A stretch of DNA of 64,000 nucleotides from Perognathus longimembris pacificus (taxonomy: Eukaryota; Chordata; Mammalia; Rodentia; Heteromyidae), in contig NC_063167.1 in NCBI RefSeq assembly GCF_023159225.1, positions 18,355,360 to 18,419,359 on the forward strand. The letters run 5' to 3'. A program made the translations under genes and the position numbers. Each line of letters begins with the position of its first letter. Within the stretch, counting starts at the first letter, position 1. The notes under the pieces are model-generated. The model was given only the letters and a program-made list of their open reading frames with translations, did not search any database and was not told where the DNA came from. Shown here one piece after another: positions 53,021-62,925 of this stretch.

Positions 53021-53099
53021 TGTTGTGCCAAGTCGCAAGACCACCCCCAAGAAGACCACCGAGATTCAGACACTCCGAAATGCAAAAGCAAGGCAAGGC

Positions 53100-53105
53100 T
53101 TTATT
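53100..53105 (-). terminator. Polyadenylation signal in inverted arm
   Basis: TTTATT on the plus strand is AATAAA on the minus strand, the LTR signal in inverted orientation. Confidence 0.7.
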
Positions 53106-53185
53106 TAACGAGCTGCCAACTCGGGCCTCGTCCTACCCACCGACACAGCGGAGGTTAGGAGGAAGCCCGAGTTGGCAGCTCGTTA

Positions 53186-53191
53186 AATAAA
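53186..53191 (+). terminator. Polyadenylation signal in forward arm
   Basis: AATAAA within the R region of the promoterless left LTR. Confidence 0.7.
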
Positions 53192-53272
53192 GCCTTGCCT
53201 TGCTTTTGCATTTCGGAGTGTCTGAATCTCGGTGGTCTTCTTGGGGGTGGTCTTGCGACTTGGCACAACATT

Positions 53273-53290
53273 TGGGGTTTCGTCCGGGAT
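53273..53290 (+). other. tRNA-Pro-type primer binding site, altered
   Basis: TGGGGTTTCGTCCGGGAT, two adjacent differences from the intact site of copy 2, directly after the LTR end and two spacer bases. Confidence 0.8.
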
Positions 53291-53323
53291 AGCCCCAGAG
53301 ACCCCGAGATCCCAGACTCCGAA

Positions 53324-53330
53324 GGTAAGA
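53324..53330 (+). other. Candidate 5' leader splice donor, copy 1
   Basis: AAG|GTAAGA context at 53322-53330, with GT at 53325, at the position expected for a gammaretroviral leader donor. Confidence 0.45.
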
Positions 53331-53470
53331 AAACAGCACTGTTCATTTGTCTTGTCCTGTAATTTGTCTGTTTTGCTTTTGCTTGTAGGGCGCGAGTCAG
53401 TTTGGTTTTTGGCCGGAACTGACCAGGAGGACCTCCTAAACGAGACTCAACCCGCCCACCTTGTACTTGG

Positions 53471-53730
53471 GTCTGCTCCTTCTGCTTATCTGGCAGGAGG
53501 TTGTGGGCCAACTTGGGTCCACTCCTCCCGTACCCTGGCAGGAGGTTGTGGGCCAACTTGGGAGATCTCCAACTCGTAACTCGGGTCCACTCCTTCTGCA
53601 CCCTTGCAGGAGGTTGTGGGCCAACTCGGGTCCACTCCTTCTTACAGGAGGTTGTGGGCCAACTCGGGTCCATTCCTTCTGCACCCTTGTAGGAGGTTGT
53701 GGGCCAGCTTGGGAGATCTCCAACTCGTAA
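53471..53730 (+). repeat. 45-bp-type leader tandem repeats, 5 copies
   Basis: Five occurrences of GGAGGTTGTGGGCCA separated by about 40-60 bases, with units of cactccttctgcaccc and cttgggagatctccaactcg. Not gag-coding; frames stay open on both strands because the unit is a multiple of three. Confidence 0.9.
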
Positions 53731-54070
53731 CTTTTCTTAGGCCTGTGTGTTTTCCTCCTTTTGTATTAATTGTTTTGTTTTTGTAGCCTTTTGGAAGAAA
53801 TTTGGAAGTAAAATTGTCCTAAATAATTATTGCAAAGTGAGAAAAGGAGAATTATGGCTACCAAAATGTTTAATTGCCATTCCAGCTTCTTTGTAGGTTT
53901 TTTTGTAACAGTTTCCAGCAGGCCCACAGAGAAGCACAGGTGATTCCTACAAGTTTGTCAAGATCTAATACTGACCCTTAATAAGTTCCAGGTAAGAGAG
54001 CATGCTTAAAAACTACTTCTGTGTGGACCACCTTGTTGCTTATAATTGGAGTAAAGTGGCCCCTTATAAG

Positions 54071-54259
54071 ACTCATTGATCTGAATCTGCGGTTCGAAGC
54101 CAGCCCGGGCAAAGAAAGGTCCCTGTGAGAGACTTGTCTCTAATCAGCCAGCAGAGTGCTGGGAACGGAGTGGTGTGGAGCTCAAAAGTGGTACGGTGCT
54201 AGTCTAGAGCTGGAGAGCTGAGGGACAGCACTCAGGCCCTGAGTCCAAGTCGAAAGTCA
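54071..54259 (+). mobile_element. SINE captured in ERV internal region, copy 1
   Basis: Has the SINE pattern: atctgcggttcgaagccagc, tctaatcagccagcagagtg, gctcaaaagtggtacggtgc, cactcaggccctgagtccaa. The same insertion is at the same place in copy 2, so it predates the duplication. Confidence 0.75.
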
Positions 54260-54625
54260 CTCCTCCTGGGACAAAAGTGATGGAGCATCCAGAGGCAGTA
54301 AGCCACTGCTTGGATGGCAGAGATGATGTCAGATCCTAGAGTCACTACTGTTGGCCTTTCAAAAGTTAAAGCCGGGAAGTCCTAGAAGAATAGTTCATAA
54401 GCATGCCTTTCCAATGCCCATGTCTGTCTACTGGGCAGGAATTTGCCAGTCATCTGTGATAGTGGTTAGTAAGGGTAAGTTTGTCAAATGAGAGGATAGA
54501 TTAAAATCTCACCCCCCGCATTTACTCAAAGCCCTGACTGGCAGTGAGAATTTTAAGCTCATACATCTGTTTAGTAAAGAAAGCTTGTAGACCTGAGATT
54601 GTGTCCTTATTGAGATCTGTTAAAG

Positions 54626-55236
54626 GCCTGTCAGCTTGCCAATGCCCCCAATCAACAGATTACTAAAGGAGCTCGCCTCTGTGGGAATAGGCCAGGTGTG
54701 TATTGGGAAGTAGATTTCACAGAAATTACAAATATTTGCTAGTTTTTGTAGACACCTTTTCAGGATGGGTTGAAGCCTATCCAACAAAGCATGAGACTGC
54801 GAATGTAGTGGCTAAGAAGATCCTGGAAGAAATCCTACCTAGGTATGGCTTCCCATCCACCATTGGGTCAGACAACGGACAGGCTTTCGTCTCAAAAGTA
54901 AGTCAGGGAATAGCTGCAGCACTGGGGACGGATTGGAAATTGCATTGTGCTTATAGACCCCAGAGTGCAGGACAGGTAGAGAAAATGAATTGGACTCTAA
55001 AAGATATGATTCTGCTTCTGTCCCTACCCCCCATTTATTCAGACCAGGGGACTGAAATCCTAAGAACCACGGTGGAAGGAACCCTAGATGGCATCGCCAC
55101 TTGGGTTCATTGCTTCCACGCCAGGCCAGCTGACCCCTTTGCCCTGGATGACAACTACCGTGGTGGAACATGGGAGGTCTCCAAGCACCCAACTCAGCCG
55201 CTTCGCCTTCGCCTCAAGAAAAGAAAGTTAGACTGA
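54626..55236 (+). pseudogene. Broken retroviral pol: integrase part
   Basis: Integrase catalyses joining of viral DNA ends to host DNA. Here the zinc-finger end and first catalytic aspartate (the DFTE motif, codon at 54713) are in one frame, which stops shortly after. The catalytic core then continues in another frame from about 54727, with the second Asp in GSDNGQAF (codon 54871) and the Glu in GQVE (codon 54979), spaced 35 residues apart as in D,D-35-E enzymes. A deletion after position about 55010 joins core to a C-terminal segment ending TGA at 55236. Thus a frameshift and an internal deletion inactivate it. Reverse transcriptase is absent upstream. Confidence 0.85.
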
Positions 55237-55570
55237 ATATTGTTATAATTTTCTTTTTGCCTTCTTTCCTTACTACTCTGGCTAGTGGCAGCTCACTCCA
55301 AAGTGAGGTGAATCCTGCAGTCCCTTGGTAAAGTAGACTAAGGTTATAGGTTCCTGGCTAGGTAAGGTCAACGCCCCTGAGTCAGCCTGAAGAAATTACA
55401 GAAGATGGATGATCTTCACCCATCAGCCCCCCTTTAAAACCGAGGGACCAGAGTTATTTTCGGATACTACTTTTGGCCCTACTGGCCCATGCCTTACCTC
55501 TATATCATCCCCTAGACATGCAAGCCATTGAAATGGACAGAATGGAGCCATGATTGGCTCCCAAGGTACC

Positions 55571-55589
55571 AAAAAGAAAAAGGGGGAAA
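55571..55589 (+). other. Polypurine tract, copy 1
   Basis: aaaaagaaaaagggggaaa immediately 5' of the middle LTR, the expected plus-strand primer. Confidence 0.9.
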
Positions 55590-55653
55590 TGAGGTGCCAG
55601 ACTTTGAAGTCAGGCCCCACCACGTGAACCCCATTTTAGAATCGAACCCTGAG

Positions 55654-55729
55654 CCAATCAGATTTGTACCTGTGTTCTAATCTCGCTTGCACAGCTGATT
55701 GTTGTAACCTTGTTCTTTGCCTTTATAAG
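55654..55729 (+). promoter_or_regulatory. LTR promoter: CCAAT and TATA boxes
   Basis: CCAAT at 55654-55658 and TTTATAAG at 55722-55729. Initiation would fall near 55750, just before the R region. This is the only intact promoter upstream of an internal copy. Confidence 0.75.
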
Positions 55730-55812
55730 CCCTGTGTAATCACAGCTCGGGGCTTCCTCCTAACCTCCGCTGTGTCGGTGGGTAGGACGAGGCCCGAGTT
55801 GGCAGCTCGTTA

Positions 55813-55818
55813 AATAAA
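55813..55818 (+). terminator. LTR polyadenylation signal
   Basis: AATAAA in the context gttaaataaagcc, followed by T-rich and GT-rich sequence. Confidence 0.8.
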
Positions 55819-55899
55819 GCCTTGCCTTGCTTTTGCATTTCAGAGTGTCTGAATCTCGGTGGTCTTCTTGGGGGTGGTCTTGCAACTTGGCACAACATT

Positions 55900-55917
55900 T
55901 GGGGGCTCGTCCGGGAT
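55900..55917 (+). other. Intact tRNA-Pro primer binding site
   Basis: TGGGGGCTCGTCCGGGAT, 18 bases, directly after the middle LTR and a two-base spacer, the classic proline-tRNA site of gammaretroviruses. Confidence 0.95.
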
Positions 55918-55950
55918 AGCCCCAGAGACCCCGAGATCCCAGACTCCGAA

Positions 55951-55957
55951 GGTAAGA
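55951..55957 (+). other. Candidate 5' leader splice donor, copy 2
   Basis: Same AAG|GTAAGA context as in copy 1, with GT at 55952. Confidence 0.45.
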
Positions 55958-56097
55958 AAACAGCACTGTTCATTTGTCTTGTCCTGTAATTTGTCTGATT
56001 TGCTTTTGCTTGCAGGGCGCGAGTCAGTTTGGTTTTTGGCCGGAACTGACCAGGAGGACCTCCTAAACGAGACTCAACCCGCCCACCTTGTACTTGG

Positions 56098-56402
56098 GTC
56101 TGCTCCTTCTGCTTATCTGGCAGGAGGTTGTGGGCCAACTTGGGTCCACTCCTCCCGTACCCTGGCAGGAGGTTGTGGGCCAACTTGGGAGATCTCCAAC
56201 TCGTAACTCGGGTCCACTCCTTCTGCACCCTTGCAGGAGGTTGTGGGCCAACTCGGGTCCACTCCTTCTGCACCATTGCAGGAGGTTGTGGGCCAACTCG
56301 GGTCCACTCCTTCTTACAGGAGGTTGTGGGCCAACTCGGGTCCATTCCTTCTGCACCCTTGTAGGAGGTTGTGGGCCAGCTTGGGAGATCTCCAACTCGT
56401 AA
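56098..56402 (+). repeat. 45-bp-type leader tandem repeats, 6 copies
   Basis: Same array as 53471-53730 with one extra 45-bp unit (around 56262-56306, marked by gcaccattg). Otherwise nearly identical. Confidence 0.9.
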
Positions 56403-56741
56403 CTTTTCTTAGGCCTGTGTGTTTTCCTCCTTTTGTATTAATTGTTTTGTTTTTGTAGCCTTTTGGAAGAAATTTGGAAGTAAAATTGTCCTAAATAATT
56501 ATTGCAAAGTGAGAAAAGGAGAATTATGGCTACCAAAATGTTTAATTGCCATTCCAGCTTCTTTGTAGGTTTTTTTGTAACAGTTTCCAGCAGGCCCACA
56601 GAGAAGCACAGGTGATTCCTACAAGTTTGTCAAGATCTAATACTGACCCTTAATAAGTTCCAGGTAAGAGAGCATGCTTAAAAACTACTTCTGTGTGGAC
56701 CACCTTGTTGCTTATAATTGGAGTAAAGTGGCCCCTTATAA

Positions 56742-56930
56742 GACTCATTGATCTGAATCTGCGGTTCGAAGCCAGCCCGGGCAAAGAAAGGTCCCTGTGA
56801 GAGGCTTGTCTCTAATCAGCCAGCAGAGTGCTGGGAATGGAGTAGTGTGGAGCTCAAAAGTGGTACGGTGCTAGTCTTGAGCTGGAGAGCTGAGGGACAG
56901 CACTCAGGCCCTGAGTCCAAGTCGAAAGTC
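56742..56930 (+). mobile_element. SINE captured in ERV internal region, copy 2
   Basis: Counterpart of 54071-54259 with a handful of substitutions (for example ggaatggagtagtg). Confidence 0.75.
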
Positions 56931-57300
56931 ACTCCTCCTGGGACAAAAGTGATGGAGCATCCAGAGGCAGTAAGCCACTGCTTGGATGGCAGAGATGGTG
57001 TCAGATCCTAGAGTCACTACTGTTGGCCTTTCAAAAGTTAAAGCCGGGAAGTCCTAGAAGAATAGTTCATGAGCATGCCTTTCCAGTGCCCATGTCTGTC
57101 TACTTGGCAGGAATTTGCCAGTCATATGTGATAGTGGTTGGTAAGGGTAAGTTTGTTAAATGAGAGGATAGATTAAAATCTCACCCCCCGCATTTACTCA
57201 AAGCCCTGACTGGCAGTAAGAATTTTAAGTTGATACATCTGTTTAGGAAAGAAAGCTTGTAGACCTGAGATTGTGTTGTCCTTATTGAGATCTGTTAAAG

Positions 57301-57508
57301 GCCTGTCAGCTTGCCAATGCCCCCAATCAACAGATTAACCACGGTGGAGGGGACCCTGGACGGCATCGCCACTTGGGTTCATTGCTTCCACGCCAGGCCA
57401 GCTGACCCCTTTGCCCTGGATGACAACTACCGTGATGGAACATGGGAGGTCTCCAAGCACCCAACTCAGCCGCTTTGCCTTCGCCTCAAGAAAAGAAAGT
57501 TAGACTGA
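57301..57508 (+). pseudogene. Residual pol integrase fragment, copy 2
   Basis: Retains about 36 bases of the zinc-finger end, then a 403-bp deletion relative to copy 1 (54663-55065) removes the whole catalytic core, and resumes in the C-terminal segment ending TGA at 57508. Non-functional. Confidence 0.85.
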
Positions 57509-57826
57509 GACTAAGGTTATAGGTTCCTGGCTAGGTAAGGTCTACGCCCCTGAGTCAGCCTGAAGAAGTTACAGAAGATGGATGATCTTCACCCATCAGC
57601 CCCCCTTTAAAATCAAGGGACCAGAGTTGTTTTTGGGAAGATGAGGCAGGATAAACTAGAGACATGCAAAACAGAGGTACAGAGAATATTCTTGTAAGAA
57701 ATGGTGACAGGCCATTTGTTTACTACATTGGGCCCTACTGGCCCATGCCTTACCTCTATATCATCCCCTAGACATGCAAGCCATTGAAATGGACAGAATG
57801 GAGCCATGATTGGCTCCCAAGGTACC

Positions 57827-57845
57827 AAAAAGAAAAAGGGGGAAA
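57827..57845 (+). other. Polypurine tract, copy 2
   Basis: Identical 19-base tract aaaaagaaaaagggggaaa before the right LTR. Confidence 0.9.
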
Positions 57846-57909
57846 TGAGGTGCCAGACTTTGAAGTCAGGCCCCACCACGTGAACCCCATTTTAGAATCG
57901 AACCCTGAG

Positions 57910-57985
57910 CCAATCAGATTTGTACCTGTGTTCTAATCTTGCTTGCACAGCTGATTGTTGTAACCTTGTTCTTTGCCTTTATAAG
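57910..57985 (+). promoter_or_regulatory. Right LTR promoter elements
   Basis: CCAAT and TTTATAAG as in the middle LTR; would drive transcription into the flanking SINE/L1 DNA. Confidence 0.7.
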
Positions 57986-58068
57986 CCCTGTGTAATCACA
58001 GCTCGGGGCTTCCTCCTAACCTCCGCTGTGTCGGTGGGTAGGACGAGGCCCGAGTTGGCAGCTCGTTA

Positions 58069-58074
58069 AATAAA
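58069..58074 (+). terminator. Right LTR polyadenylation signal
   Basis: AATAAA in the R region, expected 3' end of proviral transcripts. Confidence 0.8.
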
Positions 58075-58153
58075 GCCTTGCCTTGCTTTTGCATTTCGGA
58101 GTGTCTGAATCTCGGTGGTCTTCTTGGGGGTGGTCTTGCAACTTGGCACAACA

Positions 58154-58157
58154 CTAC
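58154..58157 (+). other. Right target-site duplication, CTAC
   Basis: Pairs with 53017-53020. Confidence 0.7.
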
Positions 58158-58440: not shown

Positions 58441-58682
58441 CTAGCTATTAGTTATTTTTATTTTATTTTATTTTGGCCAGTCCTAGGCCGTGAACTCAGG
58501 GCCTGAGCACTGTCCCTGGCTTCTTTTTTGCTCAAGGCTAGCACTCTGCCACTTGAGCCACAGCGCCACTTCTGGCCATTTTCTGTATATGTGGTGCTGG
58601 GGAATTGAACCCAGGGCCTCATGTATACGAGGCAAGCACTCTTGCCACTAGGCCATATCCCCAGCCCCTAGCTATTAGTTAT
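58440..58682 (-). mobile_element. Young dimeric ID-headed SINE with perfect TSD
   Basis: Body about 58456-58666, with a (TTTTA)n tail at the left because it is antisense. Contains gggcctgagcactgtccctg, cttgagccacagcgccactt, atgtggtgctggggaattga, ending atatccccagcc. Flanked by a perfect 16-base duplication cctagctattagttat at 58440-58455 and 58667-58682. Confidence 0.95.
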
Positions 58683-60605: not shown

Positions 60606-61005
60606 ACAGAACCAACCAACCAACCATCAACTCAACCACCCACTCACTTAACTACCTTGCCAACTACCCAGCCAACCAACTAGTGAACCAAGTCAACTAC
60701 TCAACTAGCCAACCAACCATGAATCAGCCAACTAACCACCCAAACAACCAACTACTCACTTAACTACCCAACCATCCATCGACCCAATCAGTCAACCAAC
60801 TAACCAACCACCCAACAACTACCCACCCAACCATAAACTCAACCAACCAACCAACCAATCAACTGTCAACTCAACCAACCATGCATCAACCCAGCCAATT
60901 GACCAACCACCAACCCAATGAATGACCAGCCAACCAACCACTAACTCAACCAACCAACTACCTACCTACTTGGCACCCAACCAGCCACCAACCAATCAAC
61001 CCATC
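60606..61005 (+). repeat. Degenerate CCAA/CAAC array, about 400 bp
   Basis: Repeated (C)CAAC/CAAC-TA units with irregular ACT, ATC and CAGC interruptions. Almost no G. It begins exactly at the SINE 3' end and probably grew from its tail. Confidence 0.92.
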
Positions 61006-62604: not shown

Positions 62605-62925
62605 CTCTGTAACTAGGCTTGAACTCAGGACTTGGGTTCTGTTCCTGAGCTCCCTTTCCTTCCTTCCTTCCTTCCTTCCTTCCTTCCTTCCTTCCTTCCT
62701 TCCTTCCTTCCTTCCTTCCTTCCTTCCTTCCTTCCTTCCTTCCTTCCTTCCCAAGGCTGGTGCTCTACCACTTAACACAGCTCCACATCTGGCTTGTTGT
62801 TGCTGTTGTTGATTAATTGGAGATAAGATCCTCACACACTTTTTGGTCTGGGTTGGTTTTGAACCACAATCCTCAGATCTCAGCTTTCTGAGTGGTTAGG
62901 AGCTACTGGTGCCTGGATCTTCTAA
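62605..62925 (-). mobile_element. SINE, antisense, split by (TTCC)n
   Basis: Left part: aactaggcttgaactcagga, tgttcctgagctcc. Right part: aaggctggtgctctaccact, gattaattggagataagatc, gttttgaaccacaatcctca. The array occupies the T-rich linker. Confidence 0.8.
62655..62751 (+). repeat. (TTCC)n tetranucleotide array
   Basis: About 24 pure TTCC units; frames read repetitive KEGR-type strings on the minus strand and are artefacts. Confidence 0.97.

Follow-up and report, generated by a model that had tools for sequence, protein, structure and literature searches.

Self-priming of HIV-1 strong-stop DNA was reportedly described by Guo et al. in 1997 as a reaction depending on TAR. According to one study (PMC4668388), HIV-1 strong-stop DNA self-primes, nucleocapsid reduces this self-priming, and synthetic HIV-1 RNA starting with GGG gives rise to abundant abortive strong-stop DNA in vitro. 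Concerning the ends of the viral DNA, two other papers report that HIV-1 integrase preferred pairs of U5 ends in vitro (PMC8742673) and that integrase complexes can hold two U5 duplexes each in vitro (PMC3623958); further literature was consulted (PMC10986323, PMC13185573, PMC2656454). An integrated provirus whose left end is an inverted U5-R folded back on forward R-U5 was announced in none of the titles or abstract openings of the best-ranked papers with an open licence in PubMed Central; a subscription paper, or one outside those listed, could still describe such a provirus.

The window, that is the whole stretch of 64,000 nucleotides of Perognathus longimembris pacificus analysed here, contains an endogenous retroviral element with precisely this kind of left end. 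The element is a tandem consisting of the fold-back left end, a first internal region, an LTR, a second internal region and a further LTR (Table 1). Its traits are those of class I (gammaretrovirus-like) elements, namely a 4-bp target-site duplication (TSD) and an MLV-related integrase, whose remnant matched PF00665 (rve) above the cut-off (E 8e-16) and PF18697 (MLVIN_C) below its cut-off (E 2e-5). The primer-binding site (PBS) of the second internal region reads TGGGGGCTCGTCCGGGAT at 55900-55917, a putative match to tRNA-Pro; two of its bases are altered in the first PBS at 53273-53290, and this variant with TT for GC occurs in ordinary copies of the family too. Rfam and tRNA scans of the window gave no matches, and a scan for the LTR/PBS junction gave 0 matches in a set of viral contigs that possibly left out the window's own genome. 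An ordinary provirus has U3 on the left and U5 on the right; the left end of the window element is an inverted U5.

Table 1. Features of the fold-back element, in window coordinates.
Feature	Position	Strand	Basis or remark
Whole element	53021-58153		CTAC immediately outside either end
Left TSD copy (4-bp), CTAC	53017-53020		
Fold-back outer strand, reverse complement of U5-R	53021-53168	-	148 bp, equal to inverted 58006-58153 with 1 mismatch
GGGC, putative priming site for strong-stop 3' end GCCC	53123-53126	-	minimum-energy single-strand DNA fold
Fold-back loop, 38-nt, itself a predicted hairpin	53127-53164		
GCCC overlap at switch point (3' end of minus-strand strong-stop DNA)	53165-53168	+	compared with LTR 58005-58009
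Inner arm, forward R-U5	53165-53270	+	perfect complement of 53021-53126, 0/106 mismatches
First primer-binding site, tRNA-Pro-like, TT replacing GC	53273-53290	+	
Internal region 1 (45-bp repeat in the leader, remnant of integrase, polypurine tract)	53271-55589	+	
Integrase frame remnant (rve core, weak MLVIN_C)	54703-55236	+	Pfam
Middle LTR, complete U3-R-U5, common to both tandem units	55590-55897	+	
Internal region 2, tRNA-Pro-like PBS, two deletions of 402 and 98 bp when compared with region 1	55898-57845	+	
Right LTR, complete U3-R-U5, normal right end	57846-58153	+	
TATAAG box	57980-57985	+	first base 26-29 bases before the fold-back junction equivalent 58006-58009
Right TSD copy, CTAC	58154-58157		

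The left end begins with TGTTGTGCC, which is the 3' end of the LTR in reverse complement, and extends backwards for 148 bases to 53168. The preliminary description had taken the left terminus for inverted U5-R instead of U3, and this is borne out; the fold-back, the CTAC on both outer sides and the normal U5 right end, which it also contained, are every one found in the sequence. The arms, given there as perfect over 105 bp, are indeed perfect, but their length is 106 bp (53021-53126 and 53165-53270, without mismatch). A CCCGAG microhomology had been placed at the switch. The real overlap is GCCC (53165-53168), because the LTR has four Gs there and the fold-back strand three Cs. In the case of the base thought to be private to the arms, both arms do carry CTTGCGACTT against CTTGCAACTT in the two other LTRs of the element, but it turned out to be a common variant of the family and not unique. 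Chance can be excluded for the inverted copy, since it extends over 148 bp with 1 mismatch and recurs at nine other places. Judged from its sequence, this outer strand is read as minus-strand strong-stop DNA in its full length, with the U5 end at one side and the predicted cap site at the other.

The fold-back junction falls on 58006-58009 of the intact LTR, inside or just past the run of four Gs and 26-29 bases from the first base of TATAAG. Transcription is expected to start at about this distance from the TATAAG box, so that minus-strand strong-stop DNA would end there, and the cap site of the family is predicted at the junction. When 53021-53168 was folded as single-stranded DNA, the 3' GCCC was predicted to pair with the GGGC at 53123-53126, the four pairs having probabilities of 0.73-0.87 in the window copy; the 46-nt R hairpin so formed (53123-53168) has a predicted energy of -10.9 kcal/mol. 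The bases that would be copied next from the GGGC site are exactly those present in the inner arm. As expected of self-priming, the window copy combines a paired 3' end, by prediction only, with a second arm that copies the first in 106 of 106 positions. A terminal 4-bp stem at P >= 0.7 was predicted for 12 of 293 candidate 3' ends in the LTR, the junction end among them, and the overall fold stability of 53021-53168 was unremarkable (z -1.03).

We consider it likely that self-primed strong-stop DNA was carried through to integration with two U5-type ends, and this repeatedly. From the structure we infer the following course. Firstly, tRNA-primed minus-strand strong-stop DNA would be copied to the RNA 5' end, R starting with GGGC. 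Secondly, the jump to the 3' R would not take place; the GCCC at the 3' end of this DNA would fold onto the GGGC 42 bases upstream (53123-53126), and extension from this GGGC would copy R-U5 and presumably the tRNA 3' end, i.e. the PBS. Thirdly, the PBS end would serve in the second strand transfer where plus-strand strong-stop DNA normally does, and extension of the minus strand across the hairpin would reach the outer U5 end. Fourthly, a separate strong-stop molecule, probably of the co-packaged RNA, would make the normal first transfer, leading to the right LTR. Lastly, integrase would join the two U5-type ends with a 4-bp duplication. Two strong-stop molecules are required because self-priming uses up the 3' end of the strand, which is then no longer free for the first transfer. 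The model therefore implies that the right LTR and the left end derive from different strong-stop molecules, which extends the interpretation given at first.

The preliminary description had also proposed a search of the genome for other fold-back left borders. The search, covering 2.21 Gb in 6180 contigs, yielded at least nine further palindromic fold-backs and one remnant. Close matches to the R region of the family number about 2000 genome-wide (956 forward, 1033 reverse; none with a reversed-pattern control). A 250-bp fold-back query returned at least five full-length palindromes including the window copy when 40 of 114 candidates were scored, and one R-region match locus (L014) was a further palindromic fold-back. 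A pattern for the junction matched 66 places (control 0) and, with a palindrome scan of 68 loci, added two more; 30 of these 66 places were scanned for palindromes, and of the other 36 C17:13.6M was read. A gap pattern for the older subfamily added another two, while the exact gap pattern of the young subfamily and a short-loop pattern retrieved only copies already found (the window copy and C17:3.7M in the first case, C18:40.5M in the second). Ten of the 66 pattern matches carry GAGTTG or GAGTCG; the truncated remnant C17:13.6M is among them, as are L052 and L054, which were rejected as fold-backs since they have no palindrome. In total at least ten palindromic fold-backs and the one remnant are present, and these counts are lower bounds. 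The fold-backs are C7:18.4M (the window copy), C1:98.8M, C17:3.7M, C19:24.7M, C18:40.5M, C14:1.07M, C6:35.3M, C7:82.5M, C14:34.07M and C18:47.66M.

The arrangement of the window copy, called type A in the following, occurs in eight of the ten, all except C14:34.07M and C18:47.66M. All type-A copies have the junction in common, and the loop is shortened in one. A single internal region and a single right LTR follow the fold-back at C1, C17:3.7M, C19, C18:40.5M, C6 and C7:82.5M; C14:1.07M is a short element of 919 bp whose right LTR matches in R-U5 only. The two remaining copies, C14:34.07M and C18:47.66M, are old and have an inverted loop, with the partial reverse strand first and the full forward R after it; this could be due to copying of the hairpin's complementary strand or to an inversion that took place later between the arms. 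As to the right end of C14:34.07M, the U5 end followed by ATAT occurs at 87 places genome-wide, none of them nearby. A different arrangement was seen on the minus strand of L025 (1700-1200), where a sense LTR is directly followed by an inverted LTR without part of U5.

In single-strand folds, the best predicted 3' partner is the observed one in six of the eight type-A copies. The exceptions are C18:40.5M, whose outer arm has no pairing site and whose loop is much shortened, so that a secondary deletion is needed, and C7:82.5M, where the paired site has decayed and the predicted fold lacks the pairing. At C6:35.3M the pairing has a probability of only 0.36 and is absent from the minimum-energy fold.

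All eight type-A copies could be read at both ends. A flush 4-bp TSD was found in six of them (CTAC, CCAT, CTAT, ATAC, CTTC and ATTC), which would be expected by chance with a probability of about 1e-13. The other two have a TSD with one extra base on the left (GCTA at C14:1.07M, GTTA at C6:35.3M); this base sits between the TSD and TGTTG (L035 and L069), and may reflect incomplete end processing. Fold-back inversions are known in chromosomes, so that ordinary proviruses could in principle have lost their left U3 after integration by an inverted duplication in the host chromosome. We hold this to be very improbable, for such an event would have had to stop at the exact processed U5 end next to a TSD that is flush in six of eight copies and one base off in two, and to produce an identical junction in all eight. 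Least probable of all, and hardly credible in our view, is an artefact of assembly or library of the snap-back read type, to which palindromes are generally known to be prone: ten loci are present in one assembly, eight are read at both ends with a TSD at each, and in six of these eight copies the arms are no longer identical.

The locus had first been proposed to be a single integration of a viral DNA with two U5-type ends, made by strand switching or self-priming. This reading is supported by the flush 4-bp TSD in the window together with the same junction at seven other loci, each with its own TSD, and furthermore by a junction lying at the predicted cap site and a 3' end whose predicted pairing site is the place from which copying went on. 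Altogether the observation is confirmed and its interpretation supported, and the finding is better than first stated, since it is recurrent.

The flanks of all eight copies (180 bp on the left, 1500 bp on the right) were compared, which gave 17 matches of 20-207 bp at 74-95% identity, as interspersed repeats would give. No same-side match running border to border was found between any two of the eight, which indicates that they are not duplicates of one locus. Five loci were tested for an empty site. With the element taken out, the joined flanks of C17:3.7M and C14:1.07M are collinear with other SINE copies, as in an empty site; for C1 and C19 the search gave no SINE copy across the site, and for the window locus only a weak 27-base match.

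To describe the relation of the two arms, each pair was compared over the 106-bp piece and with its own 3' LTR. The arms differ by 0 mismatches in the window copy, 0 in C1, 4 plus an inserted base in C17:3.7M, 1 in C19, 6 in C18:40.5M (5 of them at the loop deletion), 2 in C14:1.07M, 6 in C6 and 3 in C7:82.5M. In five of the eight (the window copy, C1, C19, C14:1.07M and C7:82.5M) the arms are nearer to each other than to their own 3' LTR, and in C17:3.7M, C18:40.5M and C6 they are not. Bases common to both arms and absent from the own 3' LTR exist at six of the eight loci, the two without being C17:3.7M and C18:40.5M. Several such changes are limited, within the alignment, to the two arms of one copy: GAGTCGG in C1, two substitutions in C14:1.07M, an inserted T in C6 and two substitutions in C7:82.5M, including GGCATAACA. 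Beyond the alignment, the GTCTTGC shared by the arms of C14:1.07M occurs in the ordinary copy L034, and GGCATAACA occurs in the remnant C17:13.6M. Some arm-shared bases are later changes of the 3' LTR or variants of ordinary copies, and those restricted to the arms here may not be unique in the family. The shared bases would fit two sources, one arm being a copy of the other and the right LTR stemming from a different strong-stop molecule.

These comparisons also bear on a switch between molecules, in which, with no hairpin, a second strong-stop DNA of the same particle served as template for the 3' end of the first, or in which reverse transcriptase jumped from the RNA 5' end onto a second strong-stop DNA, giving the same product. 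Such a course would suit C17:3.7M, with four substitutions and an inserted base between its arms and no base common to both against the 3' LTR, and C18:40.5M, whose outer arm is without a GGGC partner. Against it stand the arm-shared changes of C1, C14:1.07M, C6 and C7:82.5M seen in no other alignment row, which two molecules from one RNA lineage could however share too, and the pairing within one strand that is predicted by the single-strand fold in six of the eight copies. On balance we find a switch between molecules unlikely as the general explanation. C17:3.7M above all may have been primed between two molecules or altered later.

The common junction of all eight copies could also be explained if one founder fold-back element had been copied and spread. 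For the relationships among copies, an R-U5 tree was built in which 45 ordinary copies were combined with the eight inner arms and the 3' LTR of each of the eight elements. On this tree 7 label changes are needed for the fold-backs, a number as low in 141 of 500 shuffles, and few branches are well supported. A single clade of all eight is nevertheless rejected (AU p 4.4e-5), the fold-back arms falling in different LTR subfamilies, while the five young copies alone are not separated by the tree (p 0.23), which is what a founder could have left among them; the independence of these five rests on their borders and TSDs. Besides, transcription is predicted to start downstream of the fold-back, which is itself without a U3, so genomic RNA should not carry the fold-back and, by textbook retrotransposition, it should not be copied. 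With unmatched borders, different subfamilies and one clade rejected, we judge the spread of a founder to be quite improbable, if slightly less so than chromosomal inverted duplication. A PBS variant (TTTCG) and a CG in U5, both found in the window copy, C1 and C14:1.07M, had suggested common descent of these three; this was dropped, as both occur in ordinary copies.

Returning to self-primed strong-stop DNA as the source of the left ends, we would place somewhat more trust in than doubt on a fuller scheme, in which it constitutes an alternative route of low rate: the self-primed hairpin would replace plus-strand strong-stop DNA, strong-stop DNA of the second RNA would make the first transfer, and integration would follow with two U5 ends, the whole being repeated in young and old subfamilies owing to the GGGC start of the RNA and a fold of R that brings the strong-stop 3' end onto an internal GGGC. 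The tandem of the window may then come from both RNAs in the same event.

The internal regions of the tandem form a mosaic. Between the two (53271-57845) the leader has 2 differences in 852 positions, the middle 27 in 831 and the 3' end 2 in 423, i.e. near-identical leaders and 3' ends enclose a middle diverged by 3%, with large indels in addition. Compared with the first region, the second has one extra unit of the 45-bp leader tandem repeat (53578-53713 in region 1, 56205-56385 in region 2) and 84 bp at 57637-57720 where the first has one base. The middle and right LTRs differ by 2 CpG transitions in 307 positions. Simple unequal crossing-over after integration is a poor fit to this uneven divergence. 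Two source genomes or later gene conversion are likely, because plain duplication after integration would give even divergence. Tandem and fold-back are separate features. Tandem proviruses exist in HERV-K, and the phrase LTR-internal-LTR-internal-LTR is reportedly used in a paper on pear. Among the listed part of the 1989 R matches, two other runs of three same-strand matches, 1.9-3.4 kb apart, were seen at C1:20.76M and C1:67.67M; three-LTR arrays may therefore not be rare in this family.

Some neighbouring sequences should be mentioned as well. A SINE lies at 58474-58667 and resembles, as we presume, SINEs of heteromyid rodents. Segments of both internal regions (54186-54247 and 56858-56919) resemble this host SINE at 58491-58554 with 75-77% identity, from which the family seems to have captured a SINE-like piece. 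Further downstream there is a long degenerate CCAA-rich repeat (60609-61005) and a perfect (TTCC)24 array (62656-62751).

As to the meaning of these loci, they suggest that self-primed strong-stop DNA can take part in the second strand transfer, lead to a complete genome and be integrated via two U5 ends. They further suggest that this happened several times in one germ line, and provide natural evidence for integration with two U5 ends. Inverted U5-R joined at the cap site is a signature by which any genome, or proviral sequencing data, can be screened. Fold-back proviruses are without the promoter of a left U3 and are probably silent from that end. Self-priming as such is known; that it is completed to inherited proviruses appears to be new within the literature searched.

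How, then, do these elements compare with known systems? They share LTRs, PBS, polypurine tract and integrase remnant with the ordinary ERV1 proviruses of the same family, but their left LTR is without U3 and has inverted U5-R instead. In outline the window copy resembles tandem proviruses that share one LTR, being LTR-internal-LTR-internal-LTR; unlike in those, its first LTR is a fold-back, and the other seven type-A copies are single. As in the paired-U5 integration reported in PMC8742673, two U5-type ends would have been joined in a concerted manner with the usual target duplication. There, however, short DNA donors and HIV-1 integrase were used in vitro, whereas here both ends belong to one natural viral DNA. 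Finally, as with self-primed strong-stop DNA of HIV-1 (PMC4668388), the 3' end would fold within an R hairpin and be extended on itself; but in HIV-1 the product is abortive, whereas here it forms the left end of complete, integrated and inherited proviruses.
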